35,402 bases of DNA from Azotosporobacter soli (GTDB lineage: Bacteria > Bacillota > Negativicutes > SG130), in NCBI RefSeq assembly GCF_030542965.1, contig NZ_JAUAOA010000030.1:1-35402 (forward strand). The letters are read 5' to 3'. Every line of letters starts with the position of its first letter. The stretch's first letter is position 1. Shown piece after piece: positions 7,299 through 21,029 of the stretch. The notes under the pieces were generated by a model, which made no database searches, was not told where the DNA came from, and saw nothing but the letters and a program-made list of their open reading frames with translations. Made by a program: the position numbers and the translations under genes.

Positions 7299-7314
7299 AA
7301 ATAATTCACAACGC

Positions 7315-7357
7315 AAAAAGAGGACTGCCAGATTCATTTTGGTATTCCTCTTTTTTT
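7315..7357 (+). terminator. Terminator of metNIQ
   Basis: AAAAAGAGGA pairs with TCCTCTTTTT, with CCA/TGG inside, and a run of seven Ts ends it. It lies 17 bp after the metQ stop. Confidence 0.85.
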
Positions 7358-7507
7358 CTTCTTTTTCTACAATATATGCTTTCCGTTTCATCATGTGTTT
7401 TTTCCTTTCATAAATACTAAACACTATTTTAATAATCGCTTTGTATAATGCTAAATAAGCATTAATATCTTACCATTCTACTCATTACTATAGGGAGCGT
7501 GATATCT

Positions 7508-7783
7508 ATGAAAACCAACCTGATTGATTTCTCTCAATTTCATTCTGCTCAAAAATTGTCTATTGATACCGATGCTGCTAAACACTACTTTTTGAATGAA
7601 GTTCTTCCATATGCCAGCAAGACGAGCCTTGAGCGGCTCATTATTGCAAATCAATCCAACGACTCCACAATCGTGCATCAAGAAATGATGCGGATTTTTA
7701 TCGAATCGCAATTAACACGTCCAGAAACGACGGCTCCAAACAGCTTAGAAGCATTCTTCACAGCTTCACCTTCGTCTATATAA
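7508..7783 (+). CDS. Small protein of unknown function upstream of csrA
   Basis: I do not recognise this 91-residue protein. It has no signal peptide or membrane segment. The middle is helical and acidic/polar (DAAKHYFLNEVLPYASKTSLERLIIANQ). The C-terminus (PETTAPNSLEAFFTASPSSI) looks disordered. The ATG at 7508 has AGGGAG about 10 nt upstream; the GTG at 7499 is too close to that site. It lies about 90 bp before csrA, in the same direction, and is probably in the same transcription unit. It is not FliW, the usual CsrA partner, which is larger and beta-rich. A TATAAT at 7444-7449 may be part of its promoter, without a clear -35. Confidence 0.6.
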   Translation: MKTNLIDFSQFHSAQKLSIDTDAAKHYFLNEVLPYASKTSLERLIIANQSNDSTIVHQEMMRIFIESQLTRPETTAPNSLEAFFTASPSSI

Positions 7784-7872
7784 GCAAGCTCTTTTCTTTC
7801 ATATTTAATTAAAACTAAATACAATCATGAGATGATAGGATGAGTAAAATTAGTTTCATAGGAGGAAGCGCC

Positions 7873-8052
7873 ATGCTGGTATTAGGTAGAAAAGCGGGTG
7901 AATATGTAATGATCGGAAAAGACATCATGGTCAAAGTTGTTAAAAGCACTGAAGGTGATTTGCGGTTGGCAATTGACGCCCCTCGCTCTTTTCACATTCT
8001 TCGTGGAGAATTGTATGAAGATCACGAATCATGTCTTCTTGAAAACCAATAG
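7873..8052 (+). CDS. csrA: Carbon storage regulator, RNA-binding translational repressor
   Basis: CsrA is a small dimer that binds GGA motifs in mRNA leaders, typically hiding ribosome sites. In Gram-positive bacteria it represses flagellin translation. This 59-residue protein starts MLVLGRKAGEYVMIGKDI, and continues to APRSFHILRGELYED. Residues needed for RNA binding in known CsrA proteins are present: Leu4, Arg6 and Arg44. The true start is 7873, with AGGAGG 7 nt upstream; the frame is open 11 codons further. No fliW is seen next to it. The flagellin leader downstream contains five GGA motifs. Confidence 0.93.
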   Translation: MLVLGRKAGEYVMIGKDIMVKVVKSTEGDLRLAIDAPRSFHILRGELYEDHESCLLENQ

Positions 8053-8094
8053 TCTACGATCTTCTCTTTCCTCATAGACAAGGAGGTTTTTTGC

Positions 8095-8475
8095 ATGACG
8101 GCAAAGCTTATTTTGTTTCCATCCCTGAAAGAAAGCAGCATTGAAGAAACACCGCGAGAAACCATTACAAATGTTCTGTTTGAATACTTACAAGAAATTT
8201 CAACCGACAATGATTTTATCCATTACATTTCTAACCGGATGACGGAGTTTGTCTTGCGCTACGCCAGCCGTTCTTATACCCCTGTTGTAAAAATGGATTT
8301 TCCATCCTATCTTTCCACCCAAGATGCCGAATCACTACTAGCGGCAATCGATGAAACGATTCAGAGCGCTTCTAACGAAATGAATCAGCTATTAAAACAA
8401 ATAATTATCGAACGCCTTCAATTTGAAATTGATATTTATCGATCGACTGCTCCATCCTTCTCCCGGATTAAGTAA
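8095..8475 (+). CDS. Protein of unknown function downstream of csrA
   Basis: I do not recognise this 126-residue protein. It is soluble and mostly helical: an N-terminal part (RETITNVLFEYLQEISTDNDFIHYISNRMTEFVLRYAS), a short beta-like stretch (YTPVVKMDFP), then a long helix (DAESLLAAIDETIQSASNEMNQLLKQIIIERLQFEIDIY). AAGGAGG lies 8 nt before the ATG. It starts 42 bp after csrA, so it is likely cotranscribed and may concern CsrA or flagellar control. That is inferred only from position. Confidence 0.65.
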   Translation: MTAKLILFPSLKESSIEETPRETITNVLFEYLQEISTDNDFIHYISNRMTEFVLRYASRSYTPVVKMDFPSYLSTQDAESLLAAIDETIQSASNEMNQLLKQIIIERLQFEIDIYRSTAPSFSRIK

Positions 8476-8526
8476 TTTTTCATCTTCCTCTCAAATTTCG
8501 CACCACTAATTAATGCTTTCTAAAAT

Positions 8527-8574
8527 AAAAGCGTCGCACCTTTAAAGGAATCCTTTATCGGTGTGACGTTTTTA
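8527..8574. terminator. Bidirectional terminator between the csrA operon and a response regulator
   Basis: GCGTCGCACC pairs with GGTGTGACGT, with a second TAAAGGA/TCCTTTA pairing inside. A- and T-runs flank it. It serves converging genes ending at 8475 and 8606. Confidence 0.85.
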
Positions 8575-8605
8575 TTATTACTTGACTACTTGACGTATCT
8601 GATCT

Positions 8606-9322
8606 TTACGATGTAGCCGAATGCGCCGACGCAAGCACACCCTTTGCCATGGCCATATTGCTGCATTTTTGCAAATAATATCCCATCCCTCGTACGGTCT
8701 TTATATTGAGCAAGTCAATTTTCTTACGCAGATAATGGATATAAATATTGATTGTGCTCTCTTCTGCATAGGAATTATAGCCCCATACCTTTTCAATAAT
8801 TCTCTGCTTTGTTACTACCTGCCCCTGATTCCGTATCAGAAGTTCTAAGATTTGCGCTTCTTTTAGAGTTAACTGAATTACCATGCCGTTTTGAGTAACC
8901 TGCGCTCGCTGCGGATCAAAAACCATCTCTCCTATTGTCAGAACATTGTTGACGATTTCTGTATTTCTTCGCCGCGCTAACGCTTGCAATCGTGCGACCA
9001 GCTCCACATTAGAAAATGGTTTGACTAAATAATCGTCGGCTCCCGCATTTAATCCTTCTGCCCTGTCATTGGGCGTATCTTTTGCCGTCAAAAAAATAAT
9101 CGGGGTATTGAACCCTAGTTTTCTAAATTCTTTGAGCAAAGACAATCCATCTAAACCAGGCAACATTCGATCCAGAATAATAATGTCGTAAACATTCGTG
9201 CAGGCCATTTCAATACCGATCTCACCGTCATTGGCAACATCGACAACAAATCCATTGTGTTTCAACAAATACGCTAGTGCATCCGCTAACTTCAGCTCAT
9301 CTTCGATTAACAGTATTTTCAC
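8606..9322 (-). CDS. OmpR/PhoB-family response regulator
   Basis: This 238-residue DNA-binding regulator has a receiver domain (1-115) followed by a winged-helix domain (about 128-222). The likely phosphorylated residue is Asp51 in IIILDRMLPG. The acidic pocket is ED at 7-8, and the conserved lysine lies in DYLVKPF. The DNA-binding part reads LTLKEAQILELLIRNQG...VWGYNSYAEESTINIYIHYLRKKID...VRGMGYYL. About 20 extra residues (CSNMAMAKGVLASAHSATS) extend past the usual end. No histidine kinase gene is adjacent, so it is an orphan here. A repeat in its upstream region (9394-9410) could be its own binding site. Target genes are unknown. Confidence 0.88.
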   Translation of the reverse strand: MKILLIEDELKLADALAYLLKHNGFVVDVANDGEIGIEMACTNVYDIIILDRMLPGLDGLSLLKEFRKLGFNTPIIFLTAKDTPNDRAEGLNAGADDYLVKPFSNVELVARLQALARRRNTEIVNNVLTIGEMVFDPQRAQVTQNGMVIQLTLKEAQILELLIRNQGQVVTKQRIIEKVWGYNSYAEESTINIYIHYLRKKIDLLNIKTVRGMGYYLQKCSNMAMAKGVLASAHSATS

Positions 9323-9393
9323 TACAACACCTACTTGGCCACAACCTTGTGTAAATTATCCATCCTTAGATAATCTACATTCTGACATAACTT

Positions 9394-9410
9394 TATTAAA
9401 CTTTTATTAA
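9394..9410 (-). promoter_or_regulatory. PhoP-box-like direct repeat upstream of the response regulator
   Basis: On the minus strand TTAATA occurs twice, separated by 5 bp (11-bp period). This is the spacing bound by PhoP/OmpR-family dimers, and TTAATA fits the Bacillus PhoP repeat. It sits between the regulator and flagellin genes, about 72 bp before the regulator start. Self-regulation is inferred. Confidence 0.45.
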
Positions 9411-9488
9411 ATTTCAGCTTAATCATAGCGTAATTTGCAAAATAATAAATGATTATATATTTTTTTGTAAAACACGCCATTTTATTAA

Positions 9489-9516
9489 TAAACACTAAAT
9501 AATTCGCCGCGAATAT
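9489..9516 (+). promoter_or_regulatory. Candidate flagellar-sigma (sigma-28/sigma-D) promoter of flagellin
   Basis: TAAA (9489-9492) and GCGAATAT (9509-9516; 6 of 8 to GCCGATAT) are separated by 16 bp, close to the normal 15-16. Position upstream of flagellin supports it; the -10 is imperfect. Confidence 0.45.
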
Positions 9517-9533
9517 CTTAGTAAGAAAAGACT

Positions 9534-9633
9534 AAGGAGTGATGCTATGCAGCGAACAGCAAACGATATCTAAATTATTTGAAGCCCTAGGATGCATGGA
9601 AGCTACTTTTTAAAAATCAAGGAGGAATTTATT
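9534..9633 (+). promoter_or_regulatory. Flagellin mRNA leader with GGA motifs and a tiny leader ORF
   Basis: Five GGA triplets start at 9536, 9590, 9598, 9621 and 9624. The last two form the flagellin ribosome site. GGA is the core of CsrA binding sites, and csrA is encoded 1.6 kb upstream. AAGGAG at 9534-9539 also lies 7 nt before an ATG (9547) that opens a nine-codon frame, MQRTANDI and stop (9571-9573). Another frame from 9542 runs 23 residues, but its start is too near the ribosome site. CsrA binding and translation of the leader frame are inferred. Confidence 0.5.
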
Positions 9634-11331
9634 ATGTCGTTAGTAATCAGCACAAACATGTCCGCATTAAACACCACCAATCAGTTGAATAAGAACAGCT
9701 CGCTCATGAATTCATCGCTGCAAAAACTCTCTTCCGGTTATTCCATCAATAGTTCGGCCGATAACGCGGCTGGCCTGTCGATCTCCGAAAAAATGCGTGC
9801 GCAAATTCAAGGCCTCGACCAAGCCAGCAGCAACTCCCAAGACGCAATTTCGCTAGCACAAACAGCAGACGGCGCTCTGGATGAAACAACTTCTATTCTT
9901 AAACGCATGCGCGAATTGGCGGTACAGGCATCCACCGATTCATTGACGGATGATGACCGCTCGAACATCCAAGATGAAACGGATCAGTTGCGCCAGGAAC
10001 TTGATCGTATCTCCAACGATACCGAATACAATACCAAAAAACTCCTCAACGGCGACAGCGGCGCATCAACTGCCGTTTCAGGAACCAATTCCGCCGCAAT
10101 CGATACGGCGAACACAGTCGCCGGTAACAATACCGCTTCCGGCGTCTATACCGTAAACTACACTTCGGTAGCTACTGAAGCGACTACCGGCTTGGCCACG
10201 GCCTCCACTTCCGGTATTACCGCCGCAACAAGTACCATTTCCAGTTCGCTGACCGGCAGCTTTAGCATCAATGGAACCACCATCAACATCGAAAGCAGCG
10301 ATACGATCAGCGGGATCATGGAAAAAATCAATGATGAAACTTCCACGACCGGCGTAACCGCTACTTTGGATACGACGACAGCCGGCAACTATTTCATCAA
10401 GTTGACCGACAGCACTTATGGCAGCAGTTCCAGCATCACGTTAAAAGGTTCGAATGATCTGCTCGGAGCATCCGGCTTATTTAACGCCACTTCCAGCACC
10501 ACAGCCACAAGCGTCACGACGTACGGTACCAATGCCACCGGTACGATTAACGGTGCTACAGCAGTCGGTGAAGGAAACACGCTGAAAGCCTTCGATCTCA
10601 CCGTTTCCGGTGACGATGCAGCGCTCACTACTTTAGGCGGCACGGCAACCGCAACCGCAAATACCGCTTTTGACGCATTGGTAACAGCCATGAGCGCTTC
10701 CACCGGCGCCACTTCGGCCAGCGCAGACAAGTCAGCCGCCGCCGATTACAATACCGCGGTCGCTGGCGGCAGCGCCACTGCCATTGCCAAAGCCAAAGAA
10801 GCTTTGATTAAGCAGGCGGCAGCATCCGATGATGCGACAACCACAACTGACCTTACAGCCTATAAAGCGGCAACCGCAACGACTTTGGCCACCGCTGACG
10901 TAACGGTAGACGCATCCACTGCACTGACGTTCCAGGTAGGCGCAAACACCCACCAAAGCATGAGCCTCTCGATCGGCGACATGGATGCTAATGCCTTAGG
11001 CGTCGCTGGAACCGATTCCGACTCCGGTATTGATCTGACGACCGTTGATGCCGCATCCAGCGCAATCAGCGTAATCGATAAAGCCATCAAGAAAGTTTCC
11101 TCTGAACGCTCCAATCTCGGCGCGGTTCAAAACAGTCTGGAAAGCAACATTAATAATCTGGATACCGAAAGTGAAAATCTGACCTCTGCCGAATCCAACA
11201 TCCGCGATACGGATATGGCTTCCGAAATGTCTACCTACACAAAATTGAGCGTCATCACGCAAGCCGCCACCGCGATGCTGGCCAAAGCCAACCAGCAACC
11301 GCAGCAAGTTCTGACTTTGCTGCAAGGCTAA
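9634..11331 (+). CDS. fliC: Flagellin, the filament subunit
   Basis: Flagellin is exported through the flagellar core and polymerises into the filament. The 565-residue protein has conserved ends: N-terminal D0/D1 (about 1-140; KLSSGYSINSSADNAAGLSISEKM, DEXTDQLRQELDRISNDTEYNTKKLL region) and C-terminal D1/D0 (about 470-565, ending in ANQQPQQVLTLLQG). The centre is variable and rich in Thr, Ser and Ala. It holds a flagellin-IN-like segment (about 208-272) and an alanine-rich helical part (about 335-420). There is no cysteine. The ATG at 9634 is chosen because AAGGAGG lies 8 nt upstream; the frame is open 14 codons further. The gene stands alone with its own promoter and terminator. It is larger than Bacillus Hag (about 300 residues). 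Confidence 0.95.
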   Translation: MSLVISTNMSALNTTNQLNKNSSLMNSSLQKLSSGYSINSSADNAAGLSISEKMRAQIQGLDQASSNSQDAISLAQTADGALDETTSILKRMRELAVQASTDSLTDDDRSNIQDETDQLRQELDRISNDTEYNTKKLLNGDSGASTAVSGTNSAAIDTANTVAGNNTASGVYTVNYTSVATEATTGLATASTSGITAATSTISSSLTGSFSINGTTINIESSDTISGIMEKINDETSTTGVTATLDTTTAGNYFIKLTDSTYGSSSSITLKGSNDLLGASGLFNATSSTTATSVTTYGTNATGTINGATAVGEGNTLKAFDLTVSGDDAALTTLGGTATATANTAFDALVTAMSASTGATSASADKSAAADYNTAVAGGSATAIAKAKEALIKQAAASDDATTTTDLTAYKAATATTLATADVTVDASTALTFQVGANTHQSMSLSIGDMDANALGVAGTDSDSGIDLTTVDAASSAISVIDKAIKKVSSERSNLGAVQNSLESNINNLDTESENLTSAESNIRDTDMASEMSTYTKLSVITQAATAMLAKANQQPQQVLTLLQG

Positions 11332-11497: not shown

Positions 11498-11890
11498 CTA
11501 CTTTCCTACAACCGCTTTTTTACGCACTTGTTTCATTGCAGAAACCCAAGCTTCACGAAACTCAGTCAACAGTTTCTTCGCTTCCGCCAACTTATTCCGA
11601 TCTTTTTTCATATTGCCTTGAATCAAGCAATGCAAGATGTACTCATCGACAGCAAGCCAGTTTTTAGAAATTTCTTGCTTACGATCCGTCGTCAGCATAA
11701 ACTCACGCATGATATTTTGCGCCCGCAAATTCGCTTTATGCGCCTTTTCTACATCCTGCTTTTCAATCGCAACCATACTTTCCGTAATAAATCGAATAGC
11801 GCCGTCATAGAGCATTAACGTCAATTCTTCCGGCGACGCTGTCATAATCTGTTGTCTTTTATATGCATTCGCAGTATTTGCCGCATACAT
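11498..11890 (-). CDS. fliS: Flagellin export chaperone FliS
   Basis: FliS binds the C-terminal end of flagellin in the cytoplasm and keeps it unpolymerised until export. The 130-residue, all-helical protein starts MYAANTANAYKRQQIMTASPEELTLMLYDGAIRFI, the family hallmark. Length is normal. The ATG at 11890 has GAGGAGG 7 nt upstream; the ATG at 11896 is too close. It is the last gene of the flagellar operon and converges on flagellin, its client. Confidence 0.94.
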   Translation of the reverse strand: MYAANTANAYKRQQIMTASPEELTLMLYDGAIRFITESMVAIEKQDVEKAHKANLRAQNIMREFMLTTDRKQEISKNWLAVDEYILHCLIQGNMKKDRNKLAEAKKLLTEFREAWVSAMKQVRKKAVVGK

Positions 11891-11924
11891 AACCATTCCT
11901 CCTCTACGCTATTACTTTTTACCG

Positions 11925-12344
11925 TTATCCCTTTTCATTGATGAGGCGTCCCCGTGTCAGCACGGCCCACGACGTAACATATTGAGCGCGAACCTGTCTC
12001 TTCACGTTACGGCTTTTCAGCCGTCCGGACACGCTTGCTTTTTCAAGCGCTGCTTTTTGTAAAAGGTGACTGCTTGCCTGCATCAATCGAAGCTGTTTTT
12101 TTTCTATTTCCTCCTGCAGCAAAGCTGCCTCGCTTGTTCTTCGTTCCTCGCCGCAGTCTGCCAAGCGTTCTTCATTCTCCGTCAGTTCTAAAAACAATCG
12201 ATCATACTCTTTTAGCAGCCGAGGCAATCCTTTGATCGTTTCTTGTTGAATCGCCCAGCACTGCGTCGCCAGGTTCGCGGCAAGAGCCTCCAATATCTCT
12301 ATTTTATGCCGCAACAATCCAACTTTTACTTCCGCCTGCGCCAT
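11925..12344 (-). CDS. Coiled-coil flagellar protein, FliT/FlgN-like by position
   Basis: This 139-residue protein is nearly all helical, with heptad-like stretches (LLRHKIEILEALAANLATQ, LLKEYDRLFLELTENEERLADCGEERRTSEAALLQEEIEKKQLRLMQ). The C-terminus is very basic (SGRLKSRNVKRQVRAQYV). It lies between fliD and fliS, where many bacteria have fliT, an export chaperone for FliD. Size and helical content fit FliT or FlgN, but no clear signature is seen, so the name is not assigned. It starts 20 bp after fliD. No signal peptide or membrane segment. Confidence 0.6.
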   Translation of the reverse strand: MAQAEVKVGLLRHKIEILEALAANLATQCWAIQQETIKGLPRLLKEYDRLFLELTENEERLADCGEERRTSEAALLQEEIEKKQLRLMQASSHLLQKAALEKASVSGRLKSRNVKRQVRAQYVTSWAVLTRGRLINEKG

Positions 12345-12364
12345 ACCGACTCACCATCCCAACT

Positions 12365-14347
12365 CTAGCTACTGGAGGTGTACGAAGATAACGCAGAAAG
12401 CTTGGTATTCATCGTACTGATATACGTCTCCAGCGCAGAATATTTTGTATATAACTTATCTTCATAATCATCTAGGCGGTCACTTTCATCATCAATCTGC
12501 TCGCTATATTTATCAATTAATGTCGTCAGATTATTATCCGTATCCGAAGAATCCTCCGTCGTCCCGGCGATCTCAATCAGCAGCCCTTTGTTGCCTGAAC
12601 TGTCTGCAACGGTAGATATGTTCTTTGCAATGATGTCATAAAAGCGATAGGCAATGCCTTCTTCTTTATAACGCGTGCTAAGCTGGCTCGCATTTAAACT
12701 GCGAACAATCCCGGTCGTCCCCAGCGAAGCCGTTTTGCCGGAGGAAGTGGTGTATGTGGATGATGCCTGCTGCGTGAATAATTTCATCACCGCTTCCGGA
12801 TTACTCGCAATCGCCTCTTCTAACGTCGATTCGTCAATCGACAGTTTTCCGTTTTCTGCATAATCATCGCTTGCGGTGATCCCAATGCTGGAAAGACTGC
12901 TTGATTGCCCCGAAATCGAATCCGCTAATGCATTGCGCAGATTGCTCAAAAAACTGGTCAGCGTCGAATCGCCCTCCAGCAACCCGACTTTTGCTTTTGT
13001 TTCCCAACTGGTAATTTCATCATCGGTCATGTCTGCTTTTTGGTCATCCGTAAGAGCCGGATAATCAGAGTCCGCCGTTTCATCCAGCGCGTCATTGATC
13101 GTTTCCATCAAGGTATTGTAGTCATCGACGAAATCCTTGAGCAGATCGTAAACGCCGCTGCTGTCTTGCGTGACGCTGACTGTATCTGCGGTTGAAGAGC
13201 AAGAGGAAGACGTCGTCGTTGTGTCGGTAGTGGTTGTTTTATTTAATGTGTAGGTAACGCCATCAACAGTCACTACATTCGTACTTCGGACATAGCGTTG
13301 ATCATCAATTACGACAATCGAGTCTTTTCCGTCCGTTTGCGTCGTCAACAGCGCCGATATGAAATTGCTGCTTCCGCTGTCAGCGGCAACCAACGAACTT
13401 CCCGCCCCCGTATCATCGGCAGTCAATGCCAGCTTTCCCGTCGTAGAATTGTAAGTCATCGTAGCTCCCGCTGATGACTTATTGATTTCGGACATCATAT
13501 CCGACAAGGTTTCGTCTTCATCAAATGAAAAAGAAACGCCATTGATTGTCATATTAAGATATCCATTATCGAATGTTAATGCATTGCCCGAATTCAATTG
13601 ATCCGCAATGCTGGACAAAGTATCCGAAGTGCTCAACCGATTGGAAAGAACGCCGCTGCTTGTGAATCCAAGATCCGTCAGGCCGCTGTCGCTCGACGAC
13701 GCGGCACTGACCGAAATCGCCTGAACGCCCGAATCTGCGGATGTAATCGTCAAATAGCCTGAAGAGTTTTCGCTGACAGTCACCTTGCCTTCCCCAACAG
13801 CATCGTCGATCGCGTCTTGCAGCCCATCGACATCCTGGGCTGTCATATTATCCAAATCCACCGTATAATCCGTACCGTCAAGCGTCAAAACAAAACTTTC
13901 ACCGCTGAGACTGCTGTAATCCGGCGTTGTCGCTCCTTGGACATCTTTTGTGATACCGCTTCCGCTGAGACTGGCATTTGTAGCCAACTGACACACTTCA
14001 ACCGTATGACTCCCGGCCTTGGCAGTGCTGGACGCCGTTACCGCAACCGCCGACGAAGTGCTGGTCGCAGCATATTGCAAAAAATTCTTTGAGCTTAACA
14101 GACTCGTCGATGAAGACACATTAAAATATTTGCTGCTAAAATCCTGAATATCCGTAATCATCGTACGGTACGCAGTTTGCTTCCATTCCGCCGTTTGCTC
14201 TTTTTGCGTAAGCTTATTGTATTTCTTCGCCCGTTCTGCAAGCATCAACTGATCGACAATCCCGTCCACATCCAAGCCGGACGCCAAACCTGTGATCCGC
14301 GTCGTTCCATTAACCGTGGTCGTAGATATACTGCTGCTTGAAGACAT
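12365..14347 (-). CDS. fliD: Flagellar filament cap protein (hook-associated protein 2)
   Basis: FliD caps the growing filament and helps fold flagellin at the tip. The N-terminus (TRITGLASGLDVDGIVDQLMLAERAKKYNKLTQKEQTAEWKQTAYRTM) is the family signature. The C-terminus (EQIDDESDRLDDYEDKLYTKYSALETYISTMNTKLSALSSY) forms the usual coiled coil. A hook-IN-like segment (LNMTINGVSFSFDEDETLSDMMSEINKSS) lies near residues 260-290. At 660 residues it is longer than most homologues (about 450-500), with extra Ser/Thr-rich central domains. GAGGAGG lies 7 nt before the ATG. It starts 14 bp after flgL. Confidence 0.93.
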   Translation of the reverse strand: MSSSSSISTTTVNGTTRITGLASGLDVDGIVDQLMLAERAKKYNKLTQKEQTAEWKQTAYRTMITDIQDFSSKYFNVSSSTSLLSSKNFLQYAATSTSSAVAVTASSTAKAGSHTVEVCQLATNASLSGSGITKDVQGATTPDYSSLSGESFVLTLDGTDYTVDLDNMTAQDVDGLQDAIDDAVGEGKVTVSENSSGYLTITSADSGVQAISVSAASSSDSGLTDLGFTSSGVLSNRLSTSDTLSSIADQLNSGNALTFDNGYLNMTINGVSFSFDEDETLSDMMSEINKSSAGATMTYNSTTGKLALTADDTGAGSSLVAADSGSSNFISALLTTQTDGKDSIVVIDDQRYVRSTNVVTVDGVTYTLNKTTTTDTTTTSSSCSSTADTVSVTQDSSGVYDLLKDFVDDYNTLMETINDALDETADSDYPALTDDQKADMTDDEITSWETKAKVGLLEGDSTLTSFLSNLRNALADSISGQSSSLSSIGITASDDYAENGKLSIDESTLEEAIASNPEAVMKLFTQQASSTYTTSSGKTASLGTTGIVRSLNASQLSTRYKEEGIAYRFYDIIAKNISTVADSSGNKGLLIEIAGTTEDSSDTDNNLTTLIDKYSEQIDDESDRLDDYEDKLYTKYSALETYISTMNTKLSALSSYTSSS

Positions 14348-14361
14348 TTTCTCGCCTCCTC

Positions 14362-16062
14362 TTAGGTAATATAATCAATTAACGTTTTCGAAATGACCTT
14401 CGCCCCCACTGACAAGGACGCCTCATAGCAATATTCCGCACTGCTCACTTCCGTTGCAGCGGTAGCCAAATCCACCTGTTCGTTATCGGTCATATATCCC
14501 GTATATGCCGTATATGCATCATCCAATTTATCCGACACCGCATCGACTTCATCCATACGTGCGCCAAGCGTGGATTGCGCAAACGTCAAACGATCCAAGT
14601 CCGCTGAAAATTCATCGATCAAATCGCTGATTGACATGGTCTGGGTACTGACCGTCACCGTTCCTGTCGAATCGACGCTGGCCGTTTTATAAGTTGTGTC
14701 ACCTTGAAGCGCCAGCAACAACTTTGAAAAAGTGTCGAACAGATTGTTCTCGGCACCCTCGCCCACTGCATCTTGGCCTTCAATATTCACCGTGACTTGC
14801 GTACTAAATCCGATATTATAATTAATGCTCTCCGCTGCTGTTCCATACGTGGAAACCGCGGAAGATAACGTATCCGAAAGAGTCTGCTCCGCCGTCGAAG
14901 CATCCGCTACGGTCGTTGTCCCGCCATACGTCGTGACGGCATCTGCCAATGAATCCGACACGCTCTTTGCCGCTTTCGCCGCCGCTGCGAGCGACGAACT
15001 CGACGGATCCGCAGTAGCAGCTGCGGCTGCGGTATTATAATCGGCCAATGCCGTAGCAGCCGCAGCCGTCAATGTCGTCGTACCGCCGTATGCCGTAATT
15101 GCCGTCGTTAACGAGGCTGCAGACGTCTTCGTCTTGGTCGCCAGCGTCGCCAATGCCGTTGTTCCCTTCCCGTCGCTCACACAATCCGCCAGAACATCCT
15201 TTACCGTTTCCATCGCCGTGCTTGCCGAACTTAGCATTGCCGCTCCGCCATAGGTAGAAGCCGCCGTATTCAAGGTGTCATAGATGCTTTGGGCCGCCGT
15301 TGCGGCATCCGTCAGCGTCGTATTCGTTGCATCGGCAGCGGCCGCAGTCGCAGCTGCCTCATACGCCGCTTTCGCACTCGCCGTTGCGGTCGACAACGTT
15401 GTGGTTCCTCCATACGTCGTAATGGCCGTCGTAATATTTTCATACGCCGTTTTGGCCTTTGCCGCTGTAGTATTAATCGTAGCGTTGCTTTCGTACGCCT
15501 CATCTTCATTCATACTGTAGAACGATATGAGATCCGAGTCGGAAACATCCGCCGAAACAACGCCGCCCAGACTCAAATAAGATCCTTTGTACGTAATCGT
15601 ATCGCCGATATCGCTGGAAACCGTTTTATACGGCTCTTCACTTGTGCTGTAGCCGCCGAAAATATAGCGTCCGGCATAGCTTGTATTCATAATTGAAACG
15701 GCTTGATCCCGCAGTGTTTCAATCGCATCTGCAATTGTCGCCAAATCCGATTCACTATTGGTATCGTTTGCCGCTTTGGTTGTCAGCTCCTTCGCACTCG
15801 CTATCACGTCACTCAGCTGACTTAGCGCATCATCCGTCGCTTTCTGCCAATTCCCTGCAGCATCCGCAGCATCCTGTGATTGTTTGATTTGTGCAACATA
15901 GCTGCGATAACTTACAGCGCGGGTTGCCACGACCGGATCATCGGAAGCCAATTGAATTTTTTCTTGCGAAGAGGCGGCCTCGTTGGCTTTGGCCAATCGA
16001 TTGGCGGCTTTCGTAATATTTCGCAGGGCGTTGTCTGAAATCATGCTGTTGGTAATCCGCAC
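14362..16062 (-). CDS. flgL: Hook-filament junction protein FlgL with a large repeat insertion
   Basis: FlgL joins the hook to the filament. From a GTG start at 16062 the protein reads MRITNSMISDNALRNITKAANRL, the classic N-terminus; AGGAGG lies 7 nt upstream. A TTG at 16068 would add two residues but fits less well. It has 566 residues, against about 300 in most homologues. The N-terminal part (1-185, including SIMNTSYAGRYIFGGY) and the C-terminal part (about 415-566) are normal. Between them is an Ala/Thr-rich insertion (about 190-405) of eight 27-residue units with recurring YGG turns. The insertion should lie in the outward-facing D2/D3 region. It starts 11 bp after flgK. Confidence 0.92.
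   Translation of the reverse strand: MRITNSMISDNALRNITKAANRLAKANEAASSQEKIQLASDDPVVATRAVSYRSYVAQIKQSQDAADAAGNWQKATDDALSQLSDVIASAKELTTKAANDTNSESDLATIADAIETLRDQAVSIMNTSYAGRYIFGGYSTSEEPYKTVSSDIGDTITYKGSYLSLGGVVSADVSDSDLISFYSMNEDEAYESNATINTTAAKAKTAYENITTAITTYGGTTTLSTATASAKAAYEAAATAAAADATNTTLTDAATAAQSIYDTLNTAASTYGGAAMLSSASTAMETVKDVLADCVSDGKGTTALATLATKTKTSAASLTTAITAYGGTTTLTAAAATALADYNTAAAAATADPSSSSLAAAAKAAKSVSDSLADAVTTYGGTTTVADASTAEQTLSDTLSSAVSTYGTAAESINYNIGFSTQVTVNIEGQDAVGEGAENNLFDTFSKLLLALQGDTTYKTASVDSTGTVTVSTQTMSISDLIDEFSADLDRLTFAQSTLGARMDEVDAVSDKLDDAYTAYTGYMTDNEQVDLATAATEVSSAEYCYEASLSVGAKVISKTLIDYIT
14848..15495 (-). repeat. Eight degenerate 27-codon repeats inside flgL
   Basis: In the protein, tyrosines of TYGG or TYGT motifs fall at 217, 271, 325, 379 and 406 (steps of 54, 54, 54, 27). 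Leu, Ile or Val falls every 27 residues from 196 to 385. Two unit types alternate: one starts YGGTTTL, the other starts with Asp or Gly-rich turns such as DATNTTL or DPSSSSL. That gives 648 bp, 8 x 81 bp. DNA identity between units is low, so this is an old protein-level repeat. Confidence 0.8.
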
Positions 16063-16073
16063 ATGCAACCCTC

Positions 16074-17585
16074 CTAATCATTGACCATATTAATGGTGCT
16101 ATCATAGATCTGGCTCCAGGTCTTCACCGCTGCCGCCGATGCATCATACGCCGATTGATATTTCGTCAGGTTAACCGTTTCCTCATCGCTTGAAACGCCT
16201 GACACCGATGAACGACTGGTATCAATGTAAGTAACAAGCGTACTTTTACGGTCATATTGAGTTTGCGTATACGAACTGCTCGTACTTAGATCCGCAATGA
16301 TATTATTGTAGCTCTCCGTCACGGTTGAACTTCCTGAAATATCAAGATCCGTACAAATACTGATAATGTCATTGAGATTTTCGTTATTTCCCTCCTCGCC
16401 ACTGATGGAGGCACAGGCGATCAGGTCGGCGTCGTCCTGCACGTCTTTGCTTAGAGAAATATTGGCTGCCGTAATGTTTTTATAGACGGCCTGCGTATCC
16501 GTTCCGCTCGCCATCAAATCCTCCGATGATAAGTCTTCATAGGAAAAAAAACGAATTCCGGTTGTCTCTGCATCATCAATCCCTGCCCCGTCAGCATGCC
16601 CGCTGTACGAAGTCGCTCCTACCGTGATCCCTTCATTAAATGCCTGTGCGAATGACCGTGCAAATTCATTGAGCTGATTGATATAGTAGGGAATCCCTTT
16701 ACTTTCATCCGAAGAGCCATCCCGTATTTCAAGATATCCGCTAATTGAGCCGCTATCTCCTACTGCGAAATCTTCACCGGAATCAGACCAACGAATCCCA
16801 TACATGCCATACTGCGCGCTTGTAGTATCGGTAACCGTGTAGCACTCTAACGCGTTTGCCTCTTTGCCGCTCACCAACGTACCGTTCTTGGTATTAATGG
16901 TAAACGATCCGTTCTCTTCGCTAACTACGCTAATGCCTACCAAGCCGGAAAGTTTATCGACCAACGCATCTCTTTGATCCTCCAGTTCATTGGTAGATCC
17001 GCCGACTGCTTTTGCCAGCGAAATTTGCCCGTTCAAATCGGCAATCCCCGCTGCATAATCATTGATCTGATCTACTGCCGTACTGACTTCCGTGTTCAAA
17101 TCACTGCGCAATTGCGTCAATTCCGTCGACGCATTATTGAGCGTCGAACAAAATGATTCTGCCGCTCCCAGCACCGTTTCACGTACGGAACTATCACTGC
17201 TATCCGTGGATAAGGTGCTCAGCGCCGTCGTGAAAGTATTTAATGCGGTACTGATGTAATCGGTATCGCTGGCGCCGAAATAGCTCTCAATTTCAGTCAG
17301 GTAGGTCGATTTTGCTTCCAGTGCGCTGGAAGCGCTGTTCTCTTGCCAGTATTTCTGATCCAAACGAAAACTTCGTACACGGTCAACGGAAGTCACTTCC
17401 GTTCCGCCGCCAACCAGGCTGCTGCTATAAACAGCCGCCGGACCTATGGATGTCTGGGTTGCTAATTGGCGCGAATATCCGGTCGTATCAATATTGCTCA
17501 TGTTATTTGTCGTCACATTTAAGCCGACTTGACTGGCAGCTAATCCTCGCGCTGCAATGCTAAGTCCCATAAATGTCGATGCCAT
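16074..17585 (-). CDS. flgK: Hook-associated protein 1
   Basis: FlgK is the first junction protein laid on the hook. The 503-residue protein starts with the flagellar rod/hook motif LAASQVGLNVTTNNMSNIDTTGYSRQ, close to the ANNIANxNTxGYSRQ pattern. The middle has the FlgK pattern NDYAAGIADLNGQISLAKAVGGSTNELEDQRDALVDKLSGLVGI. The end (GVSSDEETVNLTKYQSAYDASAAAVKTWSQIYDSTINMV) is the C-terminal helix domain. GGAGG lies 7 nt before the ATG. A second FlgK-like gene lies directly upstream. Of the two, this one keeps the more canonical N-terminal motif. Confidence 0.9.
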   Translation of the reverse strand: MASTFMGLSIAARGLAASQVGLNVTTNNMSNIDTTGYSRQLATQTSIGPAAVYSSSLVGGGTEVTSVDRVRSFRLDQKYWQENSASSALEAKSTYLTEIESYFGASDTDYISTALNTFTTALSTLSTDSSDSSVRETVLGAAESFCSTLNNASTELTQLRSDLNTEVSTAVDQINDYAAGIADLNGQISLAKAVGGSTNELEDQRDALVDKLSGLVGISVVSEENGSFTINTKNGTLVSGKEANALECYTVTDTTSAQYGMYGIRWSDSGEDFAVGDSGSISGYLEIRDGSSDESKGIPYYINQLNEFARSFAQAFNEGITVGATSYSGHADGAGIDDAETTGIRFFSYEDLSSEDLMASGTDTQAVYKNITAANISLSKDVQDDADLIACASISGEEGNNENLNDIISICTDLDISGSSTVTESYNNIIADLSTSSSYTQTQYDRKSTLVTYIDTSRSSVSGVSSDEETVNLTKYQSAYDASAAAVKTWSQIYDSTINMVND

Positions 17586-17597
17586 ATTATTCCCTCC

Positions 17598-19094
17598 TTA
17601 CCCGATGTCTTCAATCAATCCCGCCAAAAGACTGTCCACCGTGCTCATGACCCGGGCACTCGCAGCATACGCATTCTGAAGTTTGATCATATTCGCGGTT
17701 TCTTCATCTACAGAAATTCCTGAAATGCTCTGCCGTTGGTTAGCAACGCTTTCCGTCAGTGCTTCTTGCGTTTTATAGTTGTTGCTGGCTTCATCTCCCG
17801 TTGTCCCGATCCAACTTGTCAGCGCTGCGTAAAATCCGGTAATATCGTTTGCAATCCCGCCGTAGCTGTAACACTCTTCACTGGCCAGCTCTAAGATTTG
17901 GTTCGCAATTGTATTGTCCCCATCATCACTGCTGGATGCGGTAACCAGTTTTTCCGGATCGTCCACCAGGTTCGGATTCACCTTTATGTTTGTGATGCTT
18001 AAGGGTTTACTGGAATCAACGACCGTAAAAAACGCCTCTCCCGCTTCGCCCTCGCCGTCCACACCCGATGTCGCCAACGTATTGATTTTGTCCGCCAATG
18101 TCGTAATCAACACATTGAGCGCCTGCCGCATGTTCGTAATCGAACTGCTGGCATCCGTCGAAAAATCATACGGCAAGCTGGCGGAATCAATATCTTCATA
18201 ACCACTTTGATCCGCATCTTCCAGATACGCGGCAATGCTGCCGCTGTTAACCGCCACCTTGCAATCAATGTCTGCCCGTTTCACTGTTAACGGATCACTT
18301 GTTGTTCCCGTTCCGTCTACCTCTAACGCATACGAATCACGTCCATCCACAATCGTAATGCTTCCAATGGATACTTGAATCGTATTATTCATTTGCGTTA
18401 CATTGATATTCGCCAACGATGACATTTCGTCCAGCAAGGCGTCTCTTTGGTCTCGCAAATAAGTCGCTTCACTGCCATTTGCTTCCGCACTGCTGATCTG
18501 TCCATTCAAATCGGCAACTTGCGACGCAAGGTCATTGAGGCTGTCGACGCCCTCCTTCACGCCGCTTACAGACTCTTGTTGCAGTTGTTGAAGCTGGCTG
18601 TCGATGCTCGTAAGCATCTCTACCAAGGATGTTCCCGCAGAAATAACGCTGGTACGGCTGCTTTCCGTACTCGAGTCAACCGACACCGTTTCCCATGCGG
18701 AAAAAAAATCAGTGATTTCCTGCTGCAATCCAACCGAATCCGACGTTGATTCCGAATCTGTCGCATCCGAACTGGCTTCATACTCCGTCAGCACCTGATC
18801 AAGATACTGCAAATTACCGCTTTTCACTGAATAATAGGTGGAACTGGAGTTTTGCGTTCGATAAACCTTGTCCATTAACGATTCTCTCGCCCGGGTAATG
18901 GAAGCCAAACTGACCCCGTCACCGGTAAAAGAGCCTGACTTTTGCACGGTATCCATTTCCACGCTTGCCGTTCGAACCCGCGAGGCGCCTGCCGTATTTA
19001 CATTTGCCAAATTGCTGCTGGTGGTGGCCAAAGCCGTCTGATTCACATACAACCCCGTATACGCGATGCTATATGTACTAAACGTTGAGCTCAT
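17598..19094 (-). CDS. Second FlgK-family hook-associated protein
   Basis: This 498-residue paralogue shares the FlgK layout: N-terminal YVNQTALATTSSNLANVNTAGASR, middle LNDLASQVADLNGQISSAEANGSEATYLRDQRDALLDEMSSLANI, and C-terminal GISVDEETANMIKLQNAYAASARVMSTVDSLLAGLIEDIG. The usual GYSRQ after the Asn motif is replaced by GASRV. It could be the true FlgK with the downstream gene a variant, or both may be used, for example as two layers of the junction. Only 12 bp separates the two genes. GGAGGAG precedes the start. It begins 19 bp after flgE. Confidence 0.88.
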   Translation of the reverse strand: MSSTFSTYSIAYTGLYVNQTALATTSSNLANVNTAGASRVRTASVEMDTVQKSGSFTGDGVSLASITRARESLMDKVYRTQNSSSTYYSVKSGNLQYLDQVLTEYEASSDATDSESTSDSVGLQQEITDFFSAWETVSVDSSTESSRTSVISAGTSLVEMLTSIDSQLQQLQQESVSGVKEGVDSLNDLASQVADLNGQISSAEANGSEATYLRDQRDALLDEMSSLANINVTQMNNTIQVSIGSITIVDGRDSYALEVDGTGTTSDPLTVKRADIDCKVAVNSGSIAAYLEDADQSGYEDIDSASLPYDFSTDASSSITNMRQALNVLITTLADKINTLATSGVDGEGEAGEAFFTVVDSSKPLSITNIKVNPNLVDDPEKLVTASSSDDGDNTIANQILELASEECYSYGGIANDITGFYAALTSWIGTTGDEASNNYKTQEALTESVANQRQSISGISVDEETANMIKLQNAYAASARVMSTVDSLLAGLIEDIG

Positions 19095-19113
19095 AAGCGC
19101 TCCTCCTCAAACC

Positions 19114-20469
19114 CTAGCTTTTCATATTGATCAGCGATTGCAGCATTTCATCCGCAGTAGAGATTACTTTTGTATTGGCCTGATACGCGCGTTGCGCAAT
19201 CATCAGATTCGTAAATTCTGAAGCCAAGCTCACGTTGGACATCTCTAAGGTGCCGGAGCTTAATGAACCGGTACCGCCGCTGCCGGCGGTCGTGTAAACG
19301 GGATCGCCGGAGTTATTGCTGCTGGAATACAGACTGCTCCCGGTCTTCTCCAGACCCGAAGCGTTACTGAACGTTGCCAATGCCAATTGCGCAATCGTCT
19401 TCTTTTGATCATTGCTGTAACTCACCACGATCGATCCGTCTGTCGATACGGACCAACTTTCCATCGTTCCTGCCGCATACCCATCCTGTGTGAAAGAAAG
19501 GCTGCTGGCATCCGACGAACTGGTCGTGCTGGCATTCGTGCTCGTCAATCCGCTAAAATCGAGTGTTGCGCTGAAAGCTGCCGTAGAGCCGTCAGTCGGC
19601 GTAATCGTCAGAGAAGAAGACGTCGTAAAAGTGTCCGTCCCCACCGTTCCGGAAACAAGATTTCCATCCGAATCAAAAGCGATATATCCGCTGGACGGAC
19701 TGATCGTCGCGCTATCGCCGCTGACTTCATAGTACCAACTGGTCGTATTAGTCGTAGCATCCACATAGCATTTTTTGAAATTGAGTGTTGCCGTATAGTC
19801 ATTGCCTTGTGAATCATACACTTTTACCGTTGCCGTCTTATCAAACTCGGTCGGGGTCGTACCAATGCTCGTCAATGCCGTTGCCGTCGTAGCGGCCGTA
19901 TCGCCGGAGTCCAAATAATTCCCGCTTGTGCTTGCGCTATTCAAACTGATCGCCGTCGTCGTTTTCGCCGGCATGCTGGTATCGGAATATACGTTGATTT
20001 TCACTGGCGTGTTATTCGTCGTGACCGTCGTGTTGCCGGAAGCATCCGTCGTACTGAGCCAGCCGCAAACCTCATAACCATTAATATTGAGATTTCCATC
20101 ATCATCTACGCTCAGTTCTCCATTGCGGGTATACAGATAACTGCCTGAACTTCCTTGTACCACCAAATATCCGTCGCCGCCAATGGATACGTCCGTTTCA
20201 ACGCCTGTCGTTTCCGTGCTCCCCACTGTCGTATTCGTATTCGTCGCCGCTACGCTTACGCCAGTACCAATCTGCTTTGCATTTGTTCCGCCGCTTGTTG
20301 AGCTAGATCCCGAAGCAGAACTAAGCGTTTGACTCAACAGATCACTAAAACTGACGGATTGCGACTTATACCCGGTTGTGTTTACATTGGAAATATTGTT
20401 TGAAATTACATCCAGAGCCGTCTGTTGCCCTTTTAATCCCGACACTGCGGTATACAACGATGCCATCAT
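19114..20469 (-). CDS. flgE: Flagellar hook protein
   Basis: FlgE polymerises into the flexible hook. The N-terminus (MASLYTAVSGLKGQQTALDVISNNISNVNTTGYKSQSVSFSDLLSQTL) and C-terminus (GTLEMSNVSLASEFTNLMIAQRAYQANTKVISTADEMLQSLINMKS) match FlgE and the wider rod/hook family. At 451 residues it fits FlgE rather than rod proteins FlgF or FlgG (about 260). GAGGGGG lies 9 nt before the first of two adjacent ATGs, which decides the start. It starts 55 bp after flgD, its assembly cap. Confidence 0.92.
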   Translation of the reverse strand: MMASLYTAVSGLKGQQTALDVISNNISNVNTTGYKSQSVSFSDLLSQTLSSASGSSSTSGGTNAKQIGTGVSVAATNTNTTVGSTETTGVETDVSIGGDGYLVVQGSSGSYLYTRNGELSVDDDGNLNINGYEVCGWLSTTDASGNTTVTTNNTPVKINVYSDTSMPAKTTTAISLNSASTSGNYLDSGDTAATTATALTSIGTTPTEFDKTATVKVYDSQGNDYTATLNFKKCYVDATTNTTSWYYEVSGDSATISPSSGYIAFDSDGNLVSGTVGTDTFTTSSSLTITPTDGSTAAFSATLDFSGLTSTNASTTSSSDASSLSFTQDGYAAGTMESWSVSTDGSIVVSYSNDQKKTIAQLALATFSNASGLEKTGSSLYSSSNNSGDPVYTTAGSGGTGSLSSGTLEMSNVSLASEFTNLMIAQRAYQANTKVISTADEMLQSLINMKS

Positions 20470-20524
20470 AGGAAAATTCCCCCTCGTTATTTTTTATTGA
20501 CGCTAGCCGATTTATACGTTGTTT

Positions 20525-20935
20525 TTACGATGTTGCTCCGACCACCGATATGGAATCTAAGCTGACATTGGTTCCGTCAATATTTACATATGTAGTGCCG
20601 TTGGAAATAGTTACGTAACCCACAGTACCTTGTGCCGTCGTTGAATCTCCCGAAGAATCCGTTGTCGAATATGTCACGGTTTGTCCAATTAAGCTATATG
20701 CATTTCCGCTGTTTACCGCCGAATAAATGTTTGACAGTTGTGACAGTGAGCTAATCGTAGCCATTTGACTTACATATTCCGTTGCACTGACAGGATCTGA
20801 CGGATCCTGATACTGTAATTCTGCCGCTAAAATTTGAAGGAACGAATCTGTATCTAATGTAGTCGAACCCGTAGAACTCGTTGTGCTTGACGAAGTAGTC
20901 GAGGAAGTCGATGTGGTTGATGATATTGTACTCAT
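20525..20935 (-). CDS. flgD: Hook assembly cap protein
   Basis: FlgD sits at the tip of the growing hook and guides FlgE assembly. The 136-residue protein has a Ser/Thr-rich start (about 1-28) followed by the core DTDSFLQILAAELQYQDPSDPVSATEYVSQMATISSLSQL. The remaining 70 residues form a short beta-rich domain. The length matches short FlgD forms of Gram-positives (about 140). The ATG at 20935 is set by AGGAGG about 7 nt upstream; the frame is open 16 codons further. It is the first visible gene of the operon; no fliK or flgN is seen upstream, where a terminator and an IS remnant lie instead. Confidence 0.9.
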   Translation of the reverse strand: MSTISSTTSTSSTTSSSTTSSTGSTTLDTDSFLQILAAELQYQDPSDPVSATEYVSQMATISSLSQLSNIYSAVNSGNAYSLIGQTVTYSTTDSSGDSTTAQGTVGYVTISNGTTYVNIDGTNVSLDSISVVGATS

Positions 20936-21029
20936 TGTTATCCCTCCTGAAATTGTCGGTATTTCTTTCCCCAAGTATCGCAAAACACTATTTACTACTG
21001 ATTAATAAAAGTCTAAATACAAAATAAAT

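Follow-up and report, generated by a model that had tools for sequence, protein, structure and literature searches.

CsrA of Gram-positive bacteria is understood mainly via its partner FliW. The accessible part of work on Campylobacter jejuni CsrA names V51, N55 and an intact helix around them as needed for FliW binding (PMC7829508), and a 2020 survey, in the portions available, describes one CsrA in most genomes and treats Pseudomonas and Legionella as a special case (PMC7366521). Our literature search, in which subscription journals were thinly covered, returned nothing on FliW-independent or tandem flagellin-linked csrA genes in Bacillota. The csrA gene of Azotosporobacter soli described here is a second, shortened kind of CsrA, not an ordinary csrA stripped of its partner. 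It lies in a window (the whole 35,402-nucleotide stretch of DNA analysed) that makes up the entire contig C30, one of 39 in a genome assembly of 3.78 Mb with a completeness of 98.5%.

ORF calls confirmed the arrangement given in the original prediction, with csrA between a 91-aa and a 126-aa protein in three consecutive plus-strand frames of 91, 59 and 126 aa (p91, csrA2 and p126, Table 1). The further claim that each has a good ribosome site is true of csrA2 (AGGAGG) and p126 (AAGGAGG), whereas the Shine-Dalgarno sequence of p91 (AGGGAG) is weak. An alternative GTG start of p91 lies at 7499, and a longer version of csrA2 from 7840 was judged less likely. Homologues of both small ORFs exist in other genomes, so that these are genes, not chance frames; csrA2 and p126, 42 bases apart, are probably one transcription unit. 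The hairpin that follows p126 folds at -30.2 kcal/mol (z -8.2). The response regulator between p126 and fliC2 is 76-79% identical in three relatives (G005, G102, G107), where it occupies the same position, and shows much stronger conservation than p126; a kinase gene was not seen next to it. In the flagellar cluster beyond fliC2 the fliT-like gene was named by position, having no family match, and two FlgK-like genes lie side by side (16074-19094), a doubling kept in several relatives. Only one FliF was found genome-wide, and the cluster looks like an alternative hook-filament module that would serve one kind of basal body. A transposase-like ORF at the contig end (23-1480), which we take to be of the IS1182 type, may be the reason for the contig ending there.

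Table 1. Features of the csrA2-fliC2 region and of the adjoining flagellar cluster in the window
Feature	Position	Strand	Description or basis
p91	7508..7783	+	91-aa helical protein, no known family; ORF, profile searches, homologues
csrA2	7873..8052	+	short CsrA paralogue, 59 aa, without FliW-contact motif
p126	8095..8475	+	126-aa helical protein, no known family
two-way terminator (probable)	8524..8576	.	strong hairpin with T-rich and A-rich ends, between p126 and response regulator
OmpR-type response regulator	8606..9322	-	PF00072 + PF00486; place conserved in relatives
possible sigma-28 promoter of fliC2	9489..9515	+	TAAA-N13-GCCG; pattern match
fliC2 leader	9516..9633	+	GGA at 9536-9538, 9590-9592, 9598-9600; Shine-Dalgarno GGA within 9621-9626
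fliC2, second flagellin	9634..11331	+	PF00669 + PF00700
fliS, fliT-like gene, fliD, flgL, two flgK-like genes, flgE, flgD	11498..20983	-	accessory hook-filament module

The absence of fliW noted in the original prediction was correct for the window, where no FliW is encoded, and does not extend to the genome. Its proviso that fliW lies elsewhere was borne out by a genome-wide search with two matches, both on contig C2, so that csrA2 is not adjacent to fliW; loss of fliW as an explanation is ruled out by these two genes. The first is directly followed by an ordinary csrA copy of 77 aa (csrA1) in a cluster of the order flgM-flgN-flgK-flgL-DUF6470-fliW-csrA-flaG-fliD-fliS-fliC, and this csrA1-fliW pair would serve the main flagellin. 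The second (C2:272864-273211, in L002) sits apart from csrA1, and the genome also has two csrA genes. Each of the other 14 csrA2 genomes of the class has one fliW, and within the fetched flanks of csrA2 loci fliW was found in 13 of 76, there together with a separate csrA1. FliW (PF02623) was not among the Pfam matches of p91 or p126.

The window CsrA passes the Pfam model PF02599 (69.3 bits, cut-off 27), fails the NCBIfam csrA equivalog TIGR00202 (56.7 bits, cut-off 70.1) and is 39% identical to its own csrA1. A csrA2 profile built from five window-like copies, the window copy being one of the five, recovered 20 copies in 15 of 380 class genomes at 104-142 bits, with all other CsrA at 67 or less; the window copy scored 127.9 bits against at most 67 for canonical copies. 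A scan of GTDB with the same alignment, taking one genome per species and ignoring neighbours, returned 80 loci, of which 76 (L094-L169) were of the csrA2 type, from Sporomusa, Desulfosporosinus, Clostridium, Paenibacillus, Bacillaceae and others, and L170-L173 were excluded as non-csrA2.

These proteins end shortly past residue 50 (median 58 aa). L4, R6 and V/I42 are positions that we take to contact RNA; among 125 csrA2 copies, a set that is not independent because its searches overlap, the RNA-contact positions are kept as L/V4 in 125, R6 in 125, I/V42 in 123 and R44 in 123, with L4, R6, I42 and R44 all present in the window protein. The FliW-contact motif (hydrophobic-xxx-N plus a C-terminal extension) occurs in none of the same 125 overlapping copies, as against 32 of 41 other CsrA, own csrA1 included; of the nine without it, eight are short and csrA2-like and one is gammaproteobacterial. 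An N at position 58 of the window CsrA2 could match N55 given three inserted residues, in which case C replaces V/I51 and one residue only follows N58. A tree made without the region after residue 52 places 18 canonical and 64 short copies, the window's included, on the two sides of one branch (SH-aLRT 96), the 52 alignment columns leaving forks inside each side mostly unresolved. Sequence comparison thus shows csrA2 to be a separate paralogue group in which the RNA-binding core is kept and the predicted FliW-contact region lost, and we infer that CsrA2 is insensitive to FliW. Tandem csrA2 genes occur, for example in L099, L107, L110 and L121, and 41 of the 76 loci hold at least two copies, which raises the possibility of heterodimers. 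R6 is lost in the upstream tandem partners L151:6683-6844, L153:6595-6861 and L165:6663-6839 (MLVMQC..., MLVLQC...), which are possibly dominant-negative subunits.

A flagellin gene lies at most 900 bp downstream of csrA2 on the same strand in 67 of the 76 loci, as found by a scan that was blind to neighbours, and slightly farther away in four of the remaining nine (L097, L098, L101, L118). The linked flagellins are often long, with at least 600 aa in 32 of 67 (some run off the locus). The linkage of csrA2 to flagellin spans Bacillota. In some Clostridium loci a gene for a four-helix-type protein, presumably akin to the 23S rRNA intervening-sequence proteins, lies between csrA2 and the flagellin gene (L116:7473-7841, L118:7574-7936, L134:7450-7821). 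The link is looser in the window than in most loci: fliC2 begins 1.58 kb downstream, past p126, the terminator and an opposite-strand gene. In Sporomusa and soil Paenibacillus, by comparison, the arrangement is compact. Since the terminator-like hairpin parts csrA2-p126 from fliC2, CsrA2 would act on it in trans.

The leaders of the linked flagellins were studied as a set of 59, made up of 55 of the 67 (60-310 nt), minus L117 and L126, which lack an identified flagellin start, and with six manual additions (the window, L097, L098, L101, L103, L106); 46 were left after dereplication. GGA occurs in a hairpin loop in 47 of 59 leaders, compared with 13.6 in dinucleotide shuffles (maximum 22), and hairpin GGAs total 87 against 15.5 (maximum 25). 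All 59 leaders have a GGA in the Shine-Dalgarno region, a site that means little on its own because any GGAGG-type Shine-Dalgarno sequence contains GGA. A hairpin GGA is found within 67 nt upstream of the Shine-Dalgarno region in 34 of the 46 dereplicated leaders versus 10 of 154 upstream regions of other genes; the same count in fliW-linked leaders is 10/12 (own fliC1 not yet in the set). With each leader's hairpin picked for pairing near the start codon (that of L165 re-chosen by hand, and the window and L103 sites hand-placed), 231 of 258 stem cells pair, where redealing the 3' arms gives 161 on average and 177 at most, and each stem position shows four or five pair types. Most csrA2-linked leaders carry a conserved, covarying GGA hairpin, which forms a class apart from that of fliW/csrA1-linked flagellins. 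In all 13 fliW/csrA1-linked flagellin leaders (own fliC1 included) the site, picked in the same way, is CANGGAYG, with a tight stem closure at the loop, a form seen in only one of the 46 csrA2-linked leaders (Fisher 3e-12, uncorrected for kinship, as are the co-occurrence p-values); 33 of these 46 carry AA at -3 and -2. The two hairpin classes suggest that CsrA1 and CsrA2 read different sites, and which protein binds which class we infer.

Such GGA hairpins are also present upstream of csrA2 itself (57 of 117 regions), which suggests autoregulation. A strict intrinsic terminator lies between csrA2 and flagellin, inside 17 of the 46 leaders (L094-L169), and GGA is present at both the 5' arm and the loop in 16 of these 17, compared with 76 of 445 other terminators of the same loci. 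CsrA2 binding could block termination at such sites, or the terminator RNA could titrate CsrA2, making it a sensed terminator or a sponge RNA. Upstream of the GGA hairpin, the leaders of L094, L095, L096, L099 and L110 share a near-identical, phyla-crossing hairpin, TAATAAGCC-GAGTGGCCATGA-GGCTTGTTATA, which had no Rfam match in the loci searched. At gathering scores, Rfam gave no match in any leader in 10 of the 80 loci, its only two finds there, a group I intron and a c-di-GMP riboswitch, both belonging to L160; for positions 7300-9800 of the window it gave six matches, all far below gathering scores.

In the window itself, the fliC2 start was set at 9634 and not at 9592, as indicated by the leader and by relatives. 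The sigma-28 site of Table 1 was judged by position only, the count of the pattern over the window not being above chance. AAGGAG, CAYGGARG and GGAGGA are kept in all ten aligned leaders, that is, those of the window and nine relatives. At the same time, the window leader contains no strict hairpin, its GGA excess is weak (p 0.07) and it folds no better than shuffles, so the case for regulation in the window rests on relatives. We consider it reasonably probable that CsrA2 is the short paralogue of the accessory hook-filament module, with the main task of binding GGA sites in the fliC2 leader and repressing translation: it would bind two of them, one upstream and one in the Shine-Dalgarno sequence, and once bound would hold translation down. 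Most likely, csrA2 represses the second flagellin next to it without the involvement of FliW, with RNA binding, repression and target choice in the window predicted from sequence.

The two small genes fared differently with regard to a conserved linkage to csrA, which was not seen for p91 and was seen for p126. Neither protein has a match over cut-off in Pfam or NCBIfam, and kinship between them was not seen (hhalign probability 0.4%). Homologues of p91 were found in seven of 380 class genomes, six of those with csrA2, and it adjoins csrA2 in one of the seven, that of the window, which rules it out as a conserved csrA neighbour; its AlphaFold2 model, made from one sequence, has a mean pLDDT of 69. 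The 22 matches to p126 come from 20 of the 380 genomes, and in five genomes of three families (G000, G005, G102, G107, G031) the gene immediately follows csrA2. Four of these five have the order csrA2-p126-regulator-fliC2, and G031 has a second copy inside its flagellar cluster. Moreover, 11 of the 20 p126 genomes have csrA2, compared with 15 of 380 overall (uncorrected for kinship). These observations favour p126 as a replacement for FliW in this lineage, which would bind CsrA2, FliC2 or the two alternately and free fliC2 translation upon flagellin export. However, nine of the 20 p126 genomes are without csrA2, p126 otherwise occurs in unrelated contexts, and it is found in only two of the 76 csrA2 loci (L094-L169). 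Nor does its fold offer a match: the AlphaFold2 model, made from three sequences, has three helices (mean pLDDT 72, moderate confidence), its best Foldseek E value is 1.7 with no matches at E <=0.001, and the best VIA-align Z of 6.0 is by that program's own note uninformative for helical models. We regard such a replacement as unlikely. Being present in only two of 76 loci, p126 is not a general CsrA2 antagonist, and it is possible that it acts as a local partner of CsrA2, an alternative antagonist and not a general switch.

An ordinary FliW switch with the genes apart, the second FliW serving CsrA2, would fit a genome with two fliW and two csrA genes, and yet it appears very improbable, as the FliW motif is absent from CsrA2 and the single fliW of each of the 14 other csrA2 genomes means that a second fliW does not accompany csrA2. 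The missing strict hairpin of the window leader and the diverged C-terminus of the window copy could also be taken to mean that this CsrA2 is a decaying remnant with no function at fliC2. Set against this are its 66-71% identity to four relatives with the core residues kept and the GGA sites preserved in 10/10 leaders, and we hold decay to be quite improbable. Repression of fliC2 by CsrA2 can be extended, tentatively and with considerable doubt, to two insulated CsrA circuits with different RNA codes in many Bacillota. CsrA1-FliW would read the tight CANGGAYG hairpin on the main flagellin, and a FliW-blind CsrA2 the more open, often AANGGA-type hairpin on the second, often very long flagellin. 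Release of CsrA2 would fall to a factor other than FliW. This might be p126 in the present lineage; in others, heterodimers formed by tandem copies, or the terminator RNA with GGA that follows csrA2, might act instead. With a widespread paralogue of this kind linked to a second flagellin, the choice of filament may depend on a further post-transcriptional circuit, so far unstudied, and cultured strains allow two questions to be addressed: what acts as the switch of a FliW-blind CsrA, and how a cell keeps the targets of its two CsrA proteins distinct.

More than one CsrA per genome, with a possible division of labour, is likewise known from the Rsm/CsrA paralogues of Pseudomonas and Legionella, and a flagellin-linked second CsrA in Bacillota does not figure in the portions of the survey available (PMC7366521). 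With the Campylobacter jejuni CsrA-FliW system, as set out in the accessible part of that work, CsrA2 has the RNA-binding core in common, and differs from it in being without V51, N55 and the surrounding helix (PMC7829508). The Hag-FliW-CsrA system of flagellin homeostasis in Bacillus subtilis, in the portion of the paper available, likewise links CsrA to flagellin genes and has leader GGA sites both upstream and in the Shine-Dalgarno sequence (PMC6529632). Unlike its counterpart there, CsrA2 carries no FliW-contact motif, and its gene neighbours a second flagellin instead of fliW; the csrA2-linked leaders also have an upstream site of another class.
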